NCBI RefSeq assembly: GCF_001761485.1
Contig: NC_090775.1
Span: 2,983,001-3,047,000, forward strand
Reading direction: 5' to 3'
Source: Yarrowia lipolytica
Lineage: Eukaryota; Ascomycota; Dipodascomycetes; Dipodascales
Length of the DNA stretch: 64,000 nt
Within the stretch, counting starts at the first letter, position 1. Every line of letters begins with the position of its first letter. Both the position numbers and the translations under genes were made by a program. Of the stretch, positions 16,820-34,966 are shown piece by piece. The notes under the pieces are model-generated. The model ran no database searches and was not told the origin of the DNA. It was given only the letters and a program-made list of their open reading frames with translations.

Positions 16820-17427
16820 TCATTTGACGGTTAGAAATCGTTACCAAAAAGAAAAAACACTACAGCTAATGAATTATTGAATACAAGAAGTAAGCAAGTA
16901 TAGACAGAACAATGGTGTGCTAATGTCTGCATCACTTTGGCGGGCAGATATATATGTACTGTACCAATACAGATGTTACCAACACATACGATACTGAAGA
17001 TTCAAATAGAATTTCATTTAAACTATCGTACATTCATACATTCCTCTCTCCGCTTACTAAGATGCTGTCGCTCTGCACTATTACCAACCAAGGCATCAGT
17101 GTGCGGCGCACATGGTGCCCGATCGAACCTTCGTTTGAAATGTGTGGTCTGCTTTAGAATAGTATAGAATAGTATAGAACATTATAGAGATGAGGAAGGA
17201 ACCTAAAGGAGTAATCAACAAGTAAGGGACGCTTACAAATCGACATGCTTTACGCCCACTTCGATTCTCCTTGTATTTATCGCCACTTCCACACTCTTCC
17301 CCATGGTTCCATTAAGCTGCTTTGCAGGCCAGCTGCACCAAGAGCCTAAATTTTTTTATTGGGTCCATTTATTTAACATGTATGAAATTTCCACTGCGAA
17401 GGCAACACAACCATACACAACACAACA
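16820..17427. other. Spacer between URA4 and ZPR1
   Basis: About 600 bases. It holds a short tandem repeat of the unit AGTATAGAAT (about 17157-17185) and, just before ZPR1, an ACACAACACAACA leader. No gene or RNA is visible. Confidence 0.45.
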
Positions 17428-18945
17428 ATGGCTGATAACACAAACACAAACGTGCCTGTACACGATGACAAGCGACAAAAAACCGAGGAGGACGCTGAGA
17501 TGTTTCAGTCGGTAGGAGACCACGCCTCCAATGTGGACAACCAAGTCGACAGCCAAGGTCTGAGAAAGACCGGAGCTGAGGATGCCGAGGGACACCCAGT
17601 ACAGGAGATTGAGTCTTTCTGTGTCAACTGTGAGAAGACCGGAATCACCCGACTGCTGCTCACTCGAATTCCTTACTTCCGGGAGATTGTGCTCATGTCT
17701 TTTGAGTGTCCCCACTGTCATCTGAAGAACTCCGAGATCCAGCCTGCTGCCCAGGTCAGCGAAAAGGGCAGCAAGTACATGCTGCGAGTAGAGAAGAAGG
17801 AGGATCTGGCCCGACAGGTGGTCAAGAGCGACTCTGGAAACGTGAAGTTTGTCGAGCTCGATGTTGAGATTCCTGCCAAGCGAGGCCAGTTGACCAACGT
17901 TGAGGGTCTCCTCACCCAACTTGCTGAGGATCTCGAGAGCGACCAGCCCGTGCGACAGCATGTGGACCCAGAGACCCACGCGAAGATCGAGGAATTTTTG
18001 GCCAAGATCAGAGGCACCATTGAGGGAGATGAGCAGCGATACCCCTTCACCGTCCAGGTCGACGATCCAGCTGGAAACTCGTGGATCGAGTACGTTCCCG
18101 GAGAGCCCTCTTCCAAGTGGTCTCACGTTGAGTACTTCCGAACCAAGGCCATGGCGAAGGCTCTGGGTCTGTCTGTTCAGGAGGATGACACCCCTGCTAG
18201 AAACCAATCTGTTGCCCAGGCTGTGAACGACGCAGCTCCCTCTATTACTGCTGCTTCCGATACTATCACCACCGCCGATGGCTCTGAAATTGAGAACATG
18301 CACTCCGAGGTCCAAACCTTTGAGTCTTCGTGTCCTTCTTGTTTCTCCAAGAACTGTCCCACCAACATGAAGGTGGTCAACATCCCCCATTTTAAGGATG
18401 TCATCATCATGGCCACTGTTTGTGAGGACTGTGGATACAAGTCAAACGAGGTCAAGACCGGAGGAGAGGTTCCCGAGAAGGGTAAGCGAACCACTCTTCT
18501 GTGTGATGACCCCGAGGATCTGACTCGAGACATTCTCAAGTCCGAGTCCTGTAGACTGCACATTCCCGAGCTGGATCTGGACCTGACAGCCGGAACTCTT
18601 GGAGGTCGATTCACCACCATTGAGGGTCTCCTCAACCAGGTTCACGACGAGCTTGACGAGCGAGTCTTCACTCAGACTTCCGACTCCATGACTGTCGAGA
18701 CCGAGCAGCGATGGCGAACTTTCCTGGCTCGACTCAAAAGCGCTGCTGAGGGCAAGATTCCTTTCACTCTGGTGATGGAGGACCCTCTCGCTGCCTCTTA
18801 CATTCAGAACCCCTTTGCTCCTGATGCTGACCCCAACATGAACCATGAAGACTTCGAGCGAACTGACGAGCAGAATGACGATCTTGGACTCAAGGATATG
18901 AACGTTGAGTCTTACCAGGAGCAGCCCAAGGAGGAGGCTAACTAG
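17428..18945 (+). CDS. ZPR1: Zinc-finger protein Zpr1
   Basis: Zpr1 is an essential chaperone that binds newly made eEF1A (in animals also SMN and receptor kinases) and moves between cytoplasm and nucleus. The 505-residue product has the expected duplicated architecture: zinc ribbon 1 with C65/C68 and C94/C97, then an alpha/beta domain (LTNVEGLLTQLAEDL), and zinc ribbon 2 with C302/C305 and C332/C335, followed by the matching second domain (FTTIEGLLNQVHDELDER). Both ribbons carry the family's CxxCx25-26CxxC pattern. The two ZPR1 modules are complete. The N-terminal ~60 residues are acidic and low-complexity. Another module-like feature is the late KGKRTTLLCDDPEDLTRDILKS, mirroring KGSKYMLRVEKKEDLARQVVKS of the first module. 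Confidence 0.96.
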   Translation: MADNTNTNVPVHDDKRQKTEEDAEMFQSVGDHASNVDNQVDSQGLRKTGAEDAEGHPVQEIESFCVNCEKTGITRLLLTRIPYFREIVLMSFECPHCHLKNSEIQPAAQVSEKGSKYMLRVEKKEDLARQVVKSDSGNVKFVELDVEIPAKRGQLTNVEGLLTQLAEDLESDQPVRQHVDPETHAKIEEFLAKIRGTIEGDEQRYPFTVQVDDPAGNSWIEYVPGEPSSKWSHVEYFRTKAMAKALGLSVQEDDTPARNQSVAQAVNDAAPSITAASDTITTADGSEIENMHSEVQTFESSCPSCFSKNCPTNMKVVNIPHFKDVIIMATVCEDCGYKSNEVKTGGEVPEKGKRTTLLCDDPEDLTRDILKSESCRLHIPELDLDLTAGTLGGRFTTIEGLLNQVHDELDERVFTQTSDSMTVETEQRWRTFLARLKSAAEGKIPFTLVMEDPLAASYIQNPFAPDADPNMNHEDFERTDEQNDDLGLKDMNVESYQEQPKEEAN

Positions 18946-19298
18946 ATTATAGAAACACTAGGAGTTTGGAGTGTAAGCATGAATAATAGCGTTAATGATA
19001 TTAATTGGTAATGATACAAAATGTGTGTATACGTGTAGGACTATCAGACAATTCTTAAGCGGTATGGCAATATTACGAATATTCTACATACCTGTACCCC
19101 ATTCGTAGATCATTGTAACCTAACTGTACAATTGTACATGCTGTAACGGCACCATCGCCTGAGGTGTGTTTTCTGAAGTAATCATCTTCTACTAAGAGTT
19201 TTGCTTTTGTCATTATTCACCGTTCGGTTGGTCTCTTTCCTTCGATAGAGTTGTATTCATAAATCATCATTCATCTACTACTTGTACTCGCTTCTTCT
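18946..19298. other. Spacer between convergent ZPR1 and dioxygenase genes
   Basis: About 350 AT-rich bases between two stop codons. Nothing recognisable apart from CTACTTGTACTC at about 19276, one of the spacer words common in the window. Confidence 0.45.
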
Positions 19299-20456
19299 TT
19301 AGTCATCATTCTCACCCTCCTCGTTCTCGTAAGGCACCTCGGCCTGAGGAGTGTATCGGTAAGCATGTCGTCGAGCTCCATCTGACCAGTCCAGCAGGGC
19401 AGTGTGGGAGGTTCGTCGGTTGTCCCAGACAACAACAGATCCGTCTTCCCATCGGGCTCGAACATGGAAATCCGATCCCTTGGCGATTATGTCGTACAGG
19501 AAATTGAGAATCAGATCAGACTCTTCCTGCTTGAGACCAACAATGTTTCGGGTGAACTGTGGGTTCACGAAGATAGACTTCTTACCAGTGGCGGGGTGCT
19601 TTCGGATAATGGGATGCACGTTCTGGACAGGTTCTCGTCGGACAACACCTCCTCGTCGGATAGAGGCGTCAGCCTGCTCGTGAGCAGAATGAACAGCCTT
19701 GAGTCCCTCAAGTCGCTTCTGGAACTCAGGAGAGAGTCGGTTGTAGGCCTCGGTGTTGTCAGAGAACAAAGTGTCTCCTCCGGTTCGGGGCATCTCGAGA
19801 ATACCGAGGAAGGTAGTTCCAGGAGGTTGCTTCTCGTATGTGACATCCGAGTGCCAGGCGACAGAAGACAGGTTGCTGGAAAAGTACTCCTTGTAGATAT
19901 CATCTCCCTCCTCTCGGAAGATAAGGTGAACCTCGGGGTAAGCCTGGGGAGATCCGGAGGTGGGATGAATGTGCTGTCTTCCAAAGTGCTCTGCATACTT
20001 GAGGGCGTCCTTGATTGGAAGCTCTCTGAAATCCTGGTCCCGGAAGACAACCACTCCTCGCTCGGCAACGAAGTAGGCAAGCTCGTCCTTGGCCTTGTCG
20101 GAGAGCTTGGAAAGCTGTACACCTCGGACCTCAGATCCAAACTTGGGGGTGAGGTCATCAACAGAGTAGCCGTACTTAGTCAATTGCTCACTAGGAACAA
20201 GGTACTTTTTGTCATTGGTGGGAAGACCCTTCTCGAAGAGGTTGGGCAGAGTCTTGTCAGCTCGCTTACCAGGCTCTTCGAACTTGAACTGCTTGTAAGG
20301 TTCGAACTTCTCAGACTGATCCCAGCCAGGGGCGTACTCAGGGAACTTCAGAGGAGGATTATGGCTCTTGGGGCCATTAGCGGTGTCCTTGTCGCCAGTA
20401 GCTCGGAAGGTGGAAGCGTCAATAGCCTGGATTCGGTAAGCTGTTTGGGTAGACAT
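19299..20456 (-). CDS. TauD-family 2-oxoglutarate-dependent dioxygenase (sulfonate/taurine type)
   Basis: This Fe(II)/2-oxoglutarate dioxygenase resembles S. cerevisiae Jlp1 and bacterial TauD, which oxidise sulfonates to release sulfite for use as a sulfur source. The 385-residue product has the facial triad H202-x-D204 (VAWHSDVTYE) and H351 (SHTALLDW), and a 2-oxoglutarate-binding arginine in GARRHAYR just after. TETAD-type core motifs GVVVFRDQDF and TGGDTLFSDNTEAY are intact. No signal peptide is present, so it is probably cytosolic. The exact substrate cannot be read from sequence; sulfonates, alkyl sulfates or 2,4-D-like acids are alternatives. The start ATG 20456 is 70 bases below a TATATATAAA box. 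A GTG-started upstream frame was rejected. Confidence 0.88.
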   Translation of the reverse strand: MSTQTAYRIQAIDASTFRATGDKDTANGPKSHNPPLKFPEYAPGWDQSEKFEPYKQFKFEEPGKRADKTLPNLFEKGLPTNDKKYLVPSEQLTKYGYSVDDLTPKFGSEVRGVQLSKLSDKAKDELAYFVAERGVVVFRDQDFRELPIKDALKYAEHFGRQHIHPTSGSPQAYPEVHLIFREEGDDIYKEYFSSNLSSVAWHSDVTYEKQPPGTTFLGILEMPRTGGDTLFSDNTEAYNRLSPEFQKRLEGLKAVHSAHEQADASIRRGGVVRREPVQNVHPIIRKHPATGKKSIFVNPQFTRNIVGLKQEESDLILNFLYDIIAKGSDFHVRARWEDGSVVVWDNRRTSHTALLDWSDGARRHAYRYTPQAEVPYENEEGENDD

Positions 20457-20523
20457 TGTTGCGATGTGGATGAATGAAACTAACCGTTTAGAAACGAAAC
20501 GATACAGACCTTGCTGTCCACGG

Positions 20524-24715: not shown

Positions 24716-24722
24716 TGTTTCA
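24716..24722 (-). promoter_or_regulatory. Possible pheromone-response element
   Basis: TGTTTCA on the plus strand is the complement of TGAAACA, the Ste12-type pheromone-response core, about 240 bases upstream of the a-factor-like ATG. A 7-base match occurs often by chance; its position before a pheromone-like gene is the only reason to list it. Confidence 0.3.
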
Positions 24723-24879
24723 AGTTCAGTGCATGGTAGAACCTCAAGAACAGTAGAATCAATGAGTTCCCTGGCTCTTATCTGCAGAACCTCAGGAATG
24801 AGCTATCCACCCTATTGACATGACCAAAAAAGGTCTGATCATCAGAGTCCAACGGATACAGCCCCAAAATGGGTTTCCA

Positions 24880-24885
24880 TATATA
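24880..24885 (+). promoter_or_regulatory. TATA box of the a-factor-like gene
   Basis: TATATA lies 79 bases before the ATG at 24959 and is followed by an A/C-rich leader ending CTATCACA, a normal yeast promoter and leader arrangement. Confidence 0.5.
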
Positions 24886-24958
24886 CATGGCAGAGCTGGG
24901 ACTACAACTGAATCCCAAACCAGTACATTCCTTTACAACACCTATCACTACTATCACA

Positions 24959-25119
24959 ATGTCTCCCCCACGACCCGTTCTCCGAGGTGATCCTAACTTC
25001 AAGGTTACTCCTATTCCAGGTACGTAGTATGCATTTCTACCCTTCAGTACACCATAACAACACATTCTAACGCAGGTAAACCAACCATTGCGGTTGAGCA
25101 GATTTGCGTAATCGCTTGA
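24959..25119 (+). CDS. Putative a-factor-like mating pheromone precursor (spliced, CAAX box CVIA)
   Basis: Exon 1 is 24959-25019 and exon 2 is 25076-25119, joined across a 56-base intron that begins GTACGT and ends TTCTAACGCAG. The spliced frame gives 34 residues, starting MSPPRPVLRGDPNFKVTPIP and ending IAVEQICVIA. The terminal CVIA is a farnesylation CAAX box and is identical to the last four residues of S. cerevisiae a-factor precursors, which are also 36-38 residues, lack a signal peptide and are exported by an ABC transporter after prenylation, AAX removal and carboxymethylation. Unspliced reading hits a TAG in the intron. TATA box and leader are well placed. The mature peptide would be a C-terminal piece ending at the modified Cys31; its N-terminal cut cannot be read. 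A prenylated peptide of other use, or a chance frame, are the alternatives. Confidence 0.68.
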
Positions 25120-26830: not shown

Positions 26831-27619
26831 TTACTCCTTCTGGAGCTGTTGGGTCTGGTCAGCCTCCTTTTCCTGAGCCACCTCCTCGGCATCAAACTCC
26901 TTGAGCATCTCCTGCACTCGGGCCTCTACGGCCTCGTTGGAGACCTCATCCACCTCCATGGCGTCCAGCTGGTCCAGAGACTCGGGCAGACCTTCGTGGG
27001 TGAACAGCTTGGCCTTCATACCGACACCAGCCAGCTTGTTTTGCGAGAGGAACTGCACCAACACCTGAATGGTATCCTGGGATGCGTTGTTGAGAATGAG
27101 CTTTCGGCCGTGGGTTCGTCGCTCGAAGTTTTCCTTGGACTTTGCATGCACGAAAACTGCTCGGTTCACAGTCCATCGCTTGAATCGGGTCTTTTGGGGC
27201 ACAGGTCCCTCAACGGGGATTCGCAGGTAGTAGGCCGCTCGCTGGGCAAACTCGGTGAAGACCTCTAGGTCCTCGTGAAAGTATGCGTTGAAGAGGAGCT
27301 CGGCACACTTGACCTTAGGGGTGCCCTCGGGAATCTTGACCTTGAGAGGTCCGTAGTAGTTGGCGAGAGCAGAAATTGGCAGAGGTCTCTCAGAGTTGGC
27401 CTCGTAGATCTTGTGCTCGGTCTGGGTGTAGGTGCCCTGCTTGGGGACCAGCAGATCATCAGACAGCTGCTGTCGAAGGGCCTGGGCCTTGGGGGTCAAC
27501 TGGGACTCCACTGAGGCCTGGGACATCTTGCCTAGCTCATTTTGTCGGAAAGTGGAGTTGAATCGCACAAGCGCCGTTCGCGGCAGTGTTCGTGGGGCCA
27601 GGGTCCGAAGAGGAATCAT
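26831..27619 (-). CDS. RSM10: Mitochondrial small-subunit ribosomal protein uS10m (Rsm10)
   Basis: This is the mitochondrial form of ribosomal protein S10, a head component of the small mitoribosomal subunit. The 262-residue product starts with a targeting sequence rich in Arg, Thr and Leu (MIPLRTLAPRTLPRTALVRFNSTF). The S10 fold occupies about residues 100-205: DLEVFTEFAQRAAYYLRIPV, then the pattern RFKRWTVNRAVFVHAKSKENFERRTHGRKL, the family's most conserved block. The C-terminal ~40 residues are acidic and predicted disordered. The start ATG at 27619 keeps the presequence. It is transcribed divergently from the gene at 28645. Confidence 0.92.
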   Translation of the reverse strand: MIPLRTLAPRTLPRTALVRFNSTFRQNELGKMSQASVESQLTPKAQALRQQLSDDLLVPKQGTYTQTEHKIYEANSERPLPISALANYYGPLKVKIPEGTPKVKCAELLFNAYFHEDLEVFTEFAQRAAYYLRIPVEGPVPQKTRFKRWTVNRAVFVHAKSKENFERRTHGRKLILNNASQDTIQVLVQFLSQNKLAGVGMKAKLFTHEGLPESLDQLDAMEVDEVSNEAVEARVQEMLKEFDAEEVAQEKEADQTQQLQKE

Positions 27620-31978: not shown

Positions 31979-34966
31979 CTAGTTGGCACTGATGAGAACG
32001 TACTTGGTAATGGATTCGAATCTCTCAGCCGTCAGCTTCAGAACCACTTTCAGAAGCTCGTTGGCAAGCACCTGTCCATCAGGCTCGAGCTGCTGGAGCT
32101 GCTTCCACGACTCGGCATCCATCTTCCAAACAGTGGTCTCCACCTCTGCTGTGACTGTTGCTGTTCTATAAGTCTCGGAGAAGAACGGCAGTTCTCCACA
32201 TGTGGTACCAGCCAGAATCGTCTCGTAAAGTCGACCCTGCTGCATGTCGTAGTCTGCTCTCAGAATACCGCTTTGTACAAGGTAGAATCCGGTGGGAGAT
32301 TGGTTGGCAGTGTACAGAACGTGACCCTTGGGAAGCACCTCCTTCTTGAAGAATGCGCAGATTCGGAACCAAAAGTCCTCGTTCTCATTGGTAAGACCCT
32401 GGGACACCTGAAGCAGTAGAGGCAACGGCTGCTTGAAGTTGTTCCACTTCATTATAGGGTCGTCTTTGACGTTGTTAGTGGCAGCCCGATGGATCATGCT
32501 CAGTCGGGGAGATGCAGAGTAGCCAGGAGATGAAGAAAGCACAGCAAGCGCATTCTTACGGTTACCAGAAGTATTGGTAGGGATATCAGTGGGTGTGCCT
32601 GGAGTGGTAGGAGAGGCAGCATCGTCGCGGGCACTGTAGTAGAGACTCAAGAACTCATTCTCGCACCATTCTAGGGCCTCGTTCAAGTTAGAGAACAGCC
32701 GAACATCAGTTCCCTGCGTGCAAGAACCCTTCCAAAGGCCAACGGCACCCAAAGCGGATGAGATGGGAGAGTTGGATCCAATACCAGACATGACTAGGTA
32801 AACGTTCTTGCTATCCAGCAGCTTTTTGATACGGATGAACGCCTCGGCAGCAGAGAAGTCGATGTTAGAAACGGCAGTCATATCCAGAATGAGGTATCGG
32901 AAAGGAGACTCCTTGAATTGTGCGTCATCCATGAGCTGCTTGATGGTATCCTCCACACGCACAATGGTACCGAAGAACATGTATCCAGAAAGCTTGAGCA
33001 GGTAGATGAGGTTACCACACTCCTGAAGAAACTTCTGTTGGGTAGCGTGACGTCGAACGGTGGATCGAGCCACGGCTCCAGTGTATGTAGCCTTGATGAC
33101 CGATCTCTGAGAAGATTGGATAACAAATGAGAAGCATGCCAACACAATACCAAACAGAATACCGTAGACAAAGTCGAAAATACCCATGGTGAGCACAATT
33201 GCCAACACAGTGATATACTCGAACCGAGACAGTCGGCCCCAAGTGTCACCCAGAGCTTCAATCAGAAGCTCAATGCCCAGCAAGAAAATGAGGGCACCAA
33301 CTACACAGACGGGGATGAAACCAATGACTACAGGACCGGCGAACATAACACCAGCCGTAGCAATGGCGAGCATGACACCAGCCACTCGAGAATCGGCTCC
33401 AGACTTGATGAACAAGACCGAGTTAGTGTAGACCAGGTAGTTTTGAATGGATCCCATCAGACCACTGAGACCGTTACTGATGCCGTGAGCAAGCAGTTCT
33501 CTATCCACGTTGATGTCCTCTTGTCCAGTGGAAACAGCGAGAGCAGGCACGTTGATGGGAACATGCAGAATACCGAAGAAGGTCAGGGCGAACATGGCAG
33601 GCACGGTTTTCAACAGAGCGGCCCAGTCTGTCTTTCCAAAGTCGTAGAGAGTGTAGTAGTACCACCAGGGCTCGCTAGTGGCCTGGGCAGAGAACACCCA
33701 GCCATTATCTCGAGCCATTTGCAGGTTCCATGAAGGAATAGCCCACACCAGCAGATGGAAGATGGCAAAAACACCGCAGAAGTATGAGGGCACAATCAGT
33801 GGATGGTGAGAGAATCGTTGGATGAGAAGCAGGGCTAATGCGAGGGCCAAAGGAGTGCTCCACATGAGAAGGATTTGGGGGTCCAGCAGAAACTTGAGAA
33901 TTGCAAATGTGTATTCCAGGGGACCGTCCATTCGGGAGGACACCTCAATACCCGTTACGCACAGGAACCATCCTACACCTCCAATGCATCCCACAAGAAT
34001 ATGACGAGGGAAGAAGGAAATGAGTGATCCTAGACGGGCAGCTCCCAGCGCCAGAAATACCAGCCCGGTTACGACAGAGGAGGTTGCAAACGCGAGAATA
34101 ACAGTAGGGATCACCCGCTCTGGCTCCTTGATCTCGGCCATTAGGGTGTATGCCATGGAATGGAAAAAGGGCACGACCTCAATCATTTCGGATCCAATAC
34201 CAGCCTTGAAAGCAGATCCTCCCAGTGAGTAGACCAATTGCGAAACGACACAACTCATGTAGAACATTGACAGACCTGCAGGACCCAGATGTGCAAAAAT
34301 GGGCTCTGATAGCGGGAACAGAATCATTCCGTACGACAGACCGTCCAAGATGTTGAGGAGAGTTCCCAGCACTACTGAGGGCAGGTATGATATTGGCTTC
34401 TTGATGCACTCGTCGAGCATGTCTGCTGATGAGGTATTTTTGATCTTTTCCTCCAGTCTCTTGAACCATCCGCTGAGTCCTCGTCTTGGTCCTCCATGGT
34501 TCACGTCGCCAGTTTCGATGTCGGGACATCCAAACGTGTGGTATTGTCGGTGTGAGTCTCTTCTGGACGCTGTGATGGTCGATTGTGCTGATTTCTTTGA
34601 TTCGGCTGACTTCTTTGGCCGTAGCGGATCTCGCTCTGTGTTGCTCAGCCCGGGAGTTTCGATCACATCTGGAATCGGTAGCGGTTCGTTGGCTAGCTGT
34701 CGAGACAGAGAGGAGCCGTGCATAGAGTAGCTCTGTGCTGATCCGGAGGATTTGGGACGGTCGTTGTTAGATGGCGAGGTTCCCATACCTTCTTCGAGCG
34801 CCATATTGGCTAGCTCGGCACTCTGGTGTCGGAGGCCTTCGTTCATGTTGGGCACTGATGGTGGAATGAGAATGGACGGTCTTCGGGAGTAGGACCGTCC
34901 GCCCAAACGCTGGAGAGGCGACTCAGAGAATGAGGAGCCCAGATATGAGTTTGGCTGCTCAGACAT
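31979..34966 (-). CDS. VSB1: SLC26-type transporter with STAS and cyclic-nucleotide-binding-like domains (Vsb1 homologue)
   Basis: The 995-residue product combines a ~190-residue disordered Ser/Arg-rich N-terminus, a sulfate-permease-type membrane domain of about 10-14 spans (residues ~190-640), a STAS domain (~665-800, with YLILDMTAVSNIDFSAAEAF) and a C-terminal cyclic-nucleotide-binding-like fold (~870-985, with GHVLYTANQSPTGFYLVQSGILRADY and TTCGELPFFSETYRTATV). This combination matches S. cerevisiae YGR125W/Vsb1, a vacuolar-membrane protein needed for storage of basic amino acids, and bacterial/fungal SulP relatives. Transport substrate is taken from the yeast homologue and is inference. 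Whether the final domain still binds nucleotide is unclear; the key Arg of the phosphate-binding cassette appears as YRTATV, a plausible match. Confidence 0.88.
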   Translation of the reverse strand: MSEQPNSYLGSSFSESPLQRLGGRSYSRRPSILIPPSVPNMNEGLRHQSAELANMALEEGMGTSPSNNDRPKSSGSAQSYSMHGSSLSRQLANEPLPIPDVIETPGLSNTERDPLRPKKSAESKKSAQSTITASRRDSHRQYHTFGCPDIETGDVNHGGPRRGLSGWFKRLEEKIKNTSSADMLDECIKKPISYLPSVVLGTLLNILDGLSYGMILFPLSEPIFAHLGPAGLSMFYMSCVVSQLVYSLGGSAFKAGIGSEMIEVVPFFHSMAYTLMAEIKEPERVIPTVILAFATSSVVTGLVFLALGAARLGSLISFFPRHILVGCIGGVGWFLCVTGIEVSSRMDGPLEYTFAILKFLLDPQILLMWSTPLALALALLLIQRFSHHPLIVPSYFCGVFAIFHLLVWAIPSWNLQMARDNGWVFSAQATSEPWWYYYTLYDFGKTDWAALLKTVPAMFALTFFGILHVPINVPALAVSTGQEDINVDRELLAHGISNGLSGLMGSIQNYLVYTNSVLFIKSGADSRVAGVMLAIATAGVMFAGPVVIGFIPVCVVGALIFLLGIELLIEALGDTWGRLSRFEYITVLAIVLTMGIFDFVYGILFGIVLACFSFVIQSSQRSVIKATYTGAVARSTVRRHATQQKFLQECGNLIYLLKLSGYMFFGTIVRVEDTIKQLMDDAQFKESPFRYLILDMTAVSNIDFSAAEAFIRIKKLLDSKNVYLVMSGIGSNSPISSALGAVGLWKGSCTQGTDVRLFSNLNEALEWCENEFLSLYYSARDDAASPTTPGTPTDIPTNTSGNRKNALAVLSSSPGYSASPRLSMIHRAATNNVKDDPIMKWNNFKQPLPLLLQVSQGLTNENEDFWFRICAFFKKEVLPKGHVLYTANQSPTGFYLVQSGILRADYDMQQGRLYETILAGTTCGELPFFSETYRTATVTAEVETTVWKMDAESWKQLQQLEPDGQVLANELLKVVLKLTAERFESITKYVLISAN

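Follow-up and report, generated by a model that had tools for sequence, protein, structure and literature searches.

A spliced gene for a short CAAX-box peptide in Yarrowia lipolytica as a probable diverged member of the a-factor family

The a-factor precursors of Saccharomyces cerevisiae, encoded by MFA1 and MFA2, are short proteins that lack a signal peptide, end in the CAAX box CVIA and carry an Asn residue ahead of the mature part. These features recur in the candidate gene described here, in which an Asn precedes the proposed mature part. MFA1 and MFA2 are not known to contain an intron, unlike the candidate, and where an ascomycete yeast has several a-factor gene copies, their pheromone products are normally identical or almost so. 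In Yarrowia lipolytica, a 2023 study by Srikant, Gaudet and Murray in Curr Biol reportedly found that deleting all four related genes in MATA cells abolishes mating. The regulatory protein MATa2 is an HMG protein. The a-specific genes are controlled by Mcm1 together with a mating-type partner, and in the older mode this control is positive and exerted with MATa2 (PMC2253631). The farnesylated pheromone of Y. lipolytica was identified and experimentally validated by Srikant and co-workers (PMC7243462).

We analyzed a stretch of 64,000 nucleotides (C6:2983001-3047000, referred to as the window, with positions counted from its first letter) together with the genome sequence of 20.5 Mb in six contigs. 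Ordinary neighbors encoded in the window (17356-20477, 26831-27619 and 31979-34966) include ZPR1, a TauD-family dioxygenase, a ribosomal S10-family protein and a sulfate permease. Considering the sequence evidence as a whole, the candidate is probably a real, spliced and a-mating-type-specific gene, and would be the fifth and most diverged intact member of the MFA family found in Yarrowia. The literature searched contains no description of this gene, and a mention in the paper or tables of the 2023 study is possible.

Structure and conservation of the candidate gene

The candidate is encoded on the forward strand by two short exons. Exon 1 (24959..25019) specifies MSPPRPVLRGDPNFKVTPIP and the first base of a split Gly codon, and exon 2 (25076..25119) supplies the rest of this codon, KPTIAVEQICVIA and the stop codon TGA. 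Joining the two gives exactly the product proposed in the initial annotation, MSPPRPVLRGDPNFKVTPIPGKPTIAVEQICVIA, a peptide of 34 residues that ends in CVIA immediately before the TGA. The CAAX box occupies 25105..25116, and the Asn at residue 13 (24995..24997) is the putative N-terminal processing site, by analogy with a-factor processing in S. cerevisiae. Other parts of the original description also agree with the sequence: the precursor is short (below 100 residues) and, as judged by eye, has no signal peptide, and a TATA box (TATATA, 24880..24885) starts 79 bases before the ATG, within the range of -69 to -89 at which the four a-factor genes of this genome have such a box. An in-frame ATG at 24887 would extend the product to 58 residues; it lies 7 bases past the first base of the TATA box, and the residues that it would add are not conserved.

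The intron comprises 56 bases (25020..25075), begins with GTACGT, ends with CTAACGCAG and interrupts the Gly codon in phase 1 (G|GT). Its designation as a canonical Yarrowia-type intron is appropriate for the branch and acceptor sequence, which is of the usual kind, but not for the donor. The commonest donors among the canonical introns of Y. lipolytica are GTGAGT (73.0%), GTAAGT (5.9%), GTATGT (2.2%) and GTGGGT (1.3%), and lower splicing efficiency accompanies the less frequent ones (PMC13309789). GTACGT is not among these four commonest donors and goes unnamed in the intron literature searched, including PMC13309789.

Evidence for conservation comes from P0001, a public protein sequence of 41 residues from a single contig of 6100 bases (source lgn), which reads MKYTSNQYAPLPTTTTTTTMSPVRPVLRGDPNFKVTPIPGK and matches with an E value of 2.8e-6. 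It agrees with exon 1 of the window in 20 of 21 residues, including the stretch FKVTPIPG, and with the translated leader in only 4 of 19. Strains of Y. lipolytica carry on average 47,941 variants relative to the reference (PMC9865632), and this count, taken with the diverged leader, suggests that P0001 derives from another species. P0001 ends in PIPG-Lys where the window reads PIPG-Thr-stop, which is consistent with an intron start of GTAA(A/G)T in P0001 as compared with GTACGT in the window. Conservation of the frame in another source is found for exon 1, whereas the exon 2 frame with its CAAX ending had no match in the protein database. This silence says little because the main a-factor likewise finds nothing there. 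A search based on open reading frames would also miss the candidate, as the stop-to-stop frame of exon 2 contains no Met.

The likelihood of obtaining such a gene from random sequence was evaluated by scanning for genes that consist of two exons separated by a Yarrowia-like intron and encode 20-100 residues ending in a CAAX box. Across the 64-kb window the scan returned one intron only, that of the candidate, with two possible ATGs (24887 and 24959), while 60 Markov-1 control sequences of 64 kb yielded 0.05 per sequence and none ending in CVIA. Among 53,436 bases of other loci the same scan gave one result, at C3:2441566 in a locus picked for its CVIA word (L009). This second spliced CVIA candidate was set aside as a probable chance reading, another frame being open through its exon 2, and its operator-like match is poor (score 11.3). 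The synonymous codon score of the candidate is 0.21 (0.40 for exon 1 and -0.07 for exon 2), a value reached by none of 193 non-coding control ORFs (mean -0.28) and by 21 of 20,000 random synonymous codings; two of the a-factor genes score 0.44 and 0.49. We regard the candidate as almost certainly a real gene.

Relation to the a-factor genes of the genome

A genome search for the CVIA word gave 16 hits, three of which end in TGG in place of a stop codon. The 13 places with true stops comprise the candidate, four intact a-factor genes, one decayed copy and seven unrelated ends. The sole hit of a first, narrower pattern, C6:2193387, belongs to these seven, and three of the unrelated ends (L006, L010 and L013) have in common an HVF stretch just upstream that is perhaps part of a dispersed repeat. 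The four intact a-factor-type genes are located at C5:1046998-1047108, C6:1323546-1323706 (spliced), C6:2129785-2129895 and C6:2134462-2134572, and encode precursors of 37 residues, MSKAIPR(A/D)YGTDSYRVNSNVTIVGGYRTFQPSSCVIA, which all end in YRTFQPSSCVIA. Their number matches that of the genes reportedly deleted in the 2023 study, and we infer that they are the same four. Two decayed copies indicate that members of the family are both acquired and lost in this genome: C6:754429-754503 (L022) has family-like residues and CVIA in different frames, and C3:3133215-3133271 (L023) has a start position without ATG, two frames and no stop after CVIA.

The candidate resembles the Yarrowia a-factor genes in size, in its MS start, VT..G stretch and CVIA end, and in the composite promoter site and the position of the TATA box, and it shares the place and phase of its intron with the spliced copy. 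In this one spliced relative, exons of 73 and 41 bases flank an intron of 50 bases, as compared with exons of 61 and 44 bases and an intron of 56 bases in the candidate. Both introns are in phase 1 and split a Gly codon (G|GT), which in both cases is residue six when counting starts at the V of a V-T pair (VTIVG|G in the a-factor gene, VTPIP|G in the candidate). The distance between the split Gly and the CAAX Cys is 8 residues in the spliced a-factor gene and 9 in the candidate, which is thus one residue longer in this part than the Yarrowia a-factor genes. Further differences are the donor, GTACGT in the candidate and GTGAGT in the spliced a-factor gene, and the absence of the intron from three of the four a-factor genes.

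Overall likeness at the residue level is weak. The alignment score of the candidate to the family, taken without Met and CVIA, was reached by 235 of 5000 shuffles, and that of exon 1 alone by 319 of 5000. The candidate was not among the seven matches of a genome search with the main a-factor, and a search of the genome for its own close DNA or protein copies returned only the candidate itself. Apart from CVIA, it has no visible likeness to S. cerevisiae MFA1 or MFA2. Nevertheless, kinship is supported by the common position and phase of the intron, by the promoter site that the candidate has together with the a-factor genes and by the conservation of exon 1 elsewhere, and it is highly likely that the candidate belongs to the Yarrowia a-factor (MFA) family. 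As its predicted mature part reads KPTIAVEQIC, and not YRTFQPSSC as in the four a-factor genes, it would represent a diverged paralogue rather than an additional gene for the same pheromone. The proposal of an a-factor-like pheromone gene can accordingly be retained for the gene, its splicing model, its CAAX end and its a-factor kinship, but not in the sense of the main a-factor gene, a place held by the four other intact genes, whose C-terminal part is identical. The reported loss of mating upon deletion of four genes, with the candidate presumably still present, speaks against the candidate being sufficient.

A composite promoter site shared with the a-factor genes

Upstream of the candidate, a composite site on the forward strand (24811..24836, with the core TATTGACATGACCAAAAAAGG at 24813-24833) combines the half TATTGAC, a putative binding sequence for an HMG-type protein, with a putative Mcm1-type box, CC-A6-GG. 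The arrangement TATTGAC-N4-CC-N6-GG is present in all four a-factor promoters, and the core of the candidate starts 146 bases before its ATG. Sites were scored with matrices that were built without the site of the candidate. A matrix built solely from the four a-factor sites gives the candidate a score of 15.2, the best value in the 64 kb (next 12.5), and 0.0018 sites at this score are expected per 600 bp. With this matrix the presumed STE6, whose site is not included in it, scores 22.1, STE3 scores 6.4 and three other ABCB genes score 7.1, 0.2 and 2.0; an unrelated-looking site before STE2 reaches 14.1, close to the 15.2 of the candidate. A six-site matrix that adds the sites of the presumed STE6 and of STE2 gives 22.5 for the candidate and 11.4 for the next site in the window, with 1.7e-5 expected, and assigns 0.5 to STE3 and 11.2, 2.3 and -1.0 to the other ABCB genes. 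Two loci picked for holding the shorter word YTATTGACNTGWCC score 24.9 and 23.9 with the six-site matrix.

The STE2 site, CCATTGACATCGCC, which was picked with a three-gene matrix and ranked below the best hit in both the leave-one-out and the four-site run, offers weak support. The presumed STE6 is a transporter at C5:718 kb that is full-size and of the ABCB type but diverged. It scores below the three other ABCB proteins against the PDB chain named as a-factor exporter, a P-glycoprotein-like STE6-2.

Genome-wide, the composite pattern TATTGACNYKWCCWRWWVVGG, with letters chosen to fit the candidate too, has six hits, namely the four a-factor promoters, the candidate and C1:1582090, and its reversed control has none. 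The shorter pattern YTATTGACNTGWCC has seven hits (three a-factor promoters, the candidate and three places on C1) against four for the reversed control, and misses the promoter of the spliced a-factor gene. By itself the shorter pattern would be weak, whereas the composite pattern stands out. No mutual alignment at E 1e-3 was obtained among the 600-bp promoters of the four genes, and of three weak matches between these promoters and the window (E 0.05 to 0.6), two fall on the site itself. Since the promoters align nowhere but at the site, it is no remnant of recent copying. The TGAAACA-type site noted in the initial annotation is indeed present, on the reverse strand at 24716, but it carries no weight because none of the four a-factor promoters has one within 600 bp.

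The only composite-pattern hit that does not precede an a-factor-type gene (C1:1582090-1582110, reverse strand; L034:3591) lies about 750 bases from the start of the gene for a protein of 231 residues on the same strand (L034:2149-2844), which has a secreted look and no Pfam match. This locus possibly represents a further a-specific gene, for example one encoding a cell-surface protein. The shorter word also occurs at C1:1361565-1361578 (L035:3566) and C1:123959-123972 (L027:1460), and the scan of 3 kb around each of these two places returned no short CAAX gene.

Proposed function and competing interpretations

Judging from its sequence features, the candidate is likely to be expressed in an a-cell-specific manner. 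In MATA cells, an HMG-type MAT protein and Mcm1 would bind at 24811-24836 and switch the gene on. The precursor would then be farnesylated at Cys31, lose VIA and be methylated, would be cut after Asn13, and would be exported through Ste6 as FKVTPIPGKPTIAVEQIC-farnesyl methyl ester, a product that differs from the main pheromone. The genome yielded one STE3 gene, and we tentatively propose that the peptide signals to the partner cell as a helper or modifier of the main pheromone through this single Ste3 receptor.

Somewhat less probable is a farnesylated a-cell peptide that is not a pheromone directed at the partner but serves another purpose, for instance by acting intracellularly or at the membrane or by blocking self-signaling. 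The combination of an a-type promoter site with a different mature sequence, and the presence of one STE3 gene only, would fit such a peptide, whereas its precursor layout matches that of the pheromone genes and no positive evidence points to another role. The candidate could also be a relic, a former a-factor gene now drifting, whose promoter is left over and whose weak donor and changed mature part mark lost function. Against this stand the intact frame, intron signals and CAAX box, the conservation of 20 of 21 exon 1 residues in another source and an overall codon bias that is gene-like, and we consider a relic decidedly unlikely even though the family does decay, as two plainly decayed copies demonstrate, the uncommon donor contrasts with the common GTAA(A/G)T type that P0001 fits, and the codon score of exon 2 is near zero. 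That the spliced frame with its CAAX end is a product of chance is highly improbable, for although CVIA-stop words also occur meaninglessly (7 of the 12 other genome places look unrelated), the Markov-1 and other-locus scans, the codon bias, the promoter site and the conservation in P0001 all oppose it.

With the candidate taken as a diverged member of the MFA family, we put forward, with considerable reserve, the possibility that the a-cells of Y. lipolytica possess two farnesylated pheromones that differ chemically and are controlled by one mating-type switch, alongside the single Ste3 receptor gene detected, and that the second pheromone modulates mating or species recognition. If this were true, the second pheromone would have gone unnoticed because the exon with its CAAX box lacks a start codon. 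In Yarrowia, a yeast that branches deeply, the promoter site provides a concrete candidate for the a-specific switch and could help to locate further a-specific genes. A co-regulated paralogue that specifies a different mature peptide would, if confirmed, make the origin of new pheromone sequences before receptor change directly testable.
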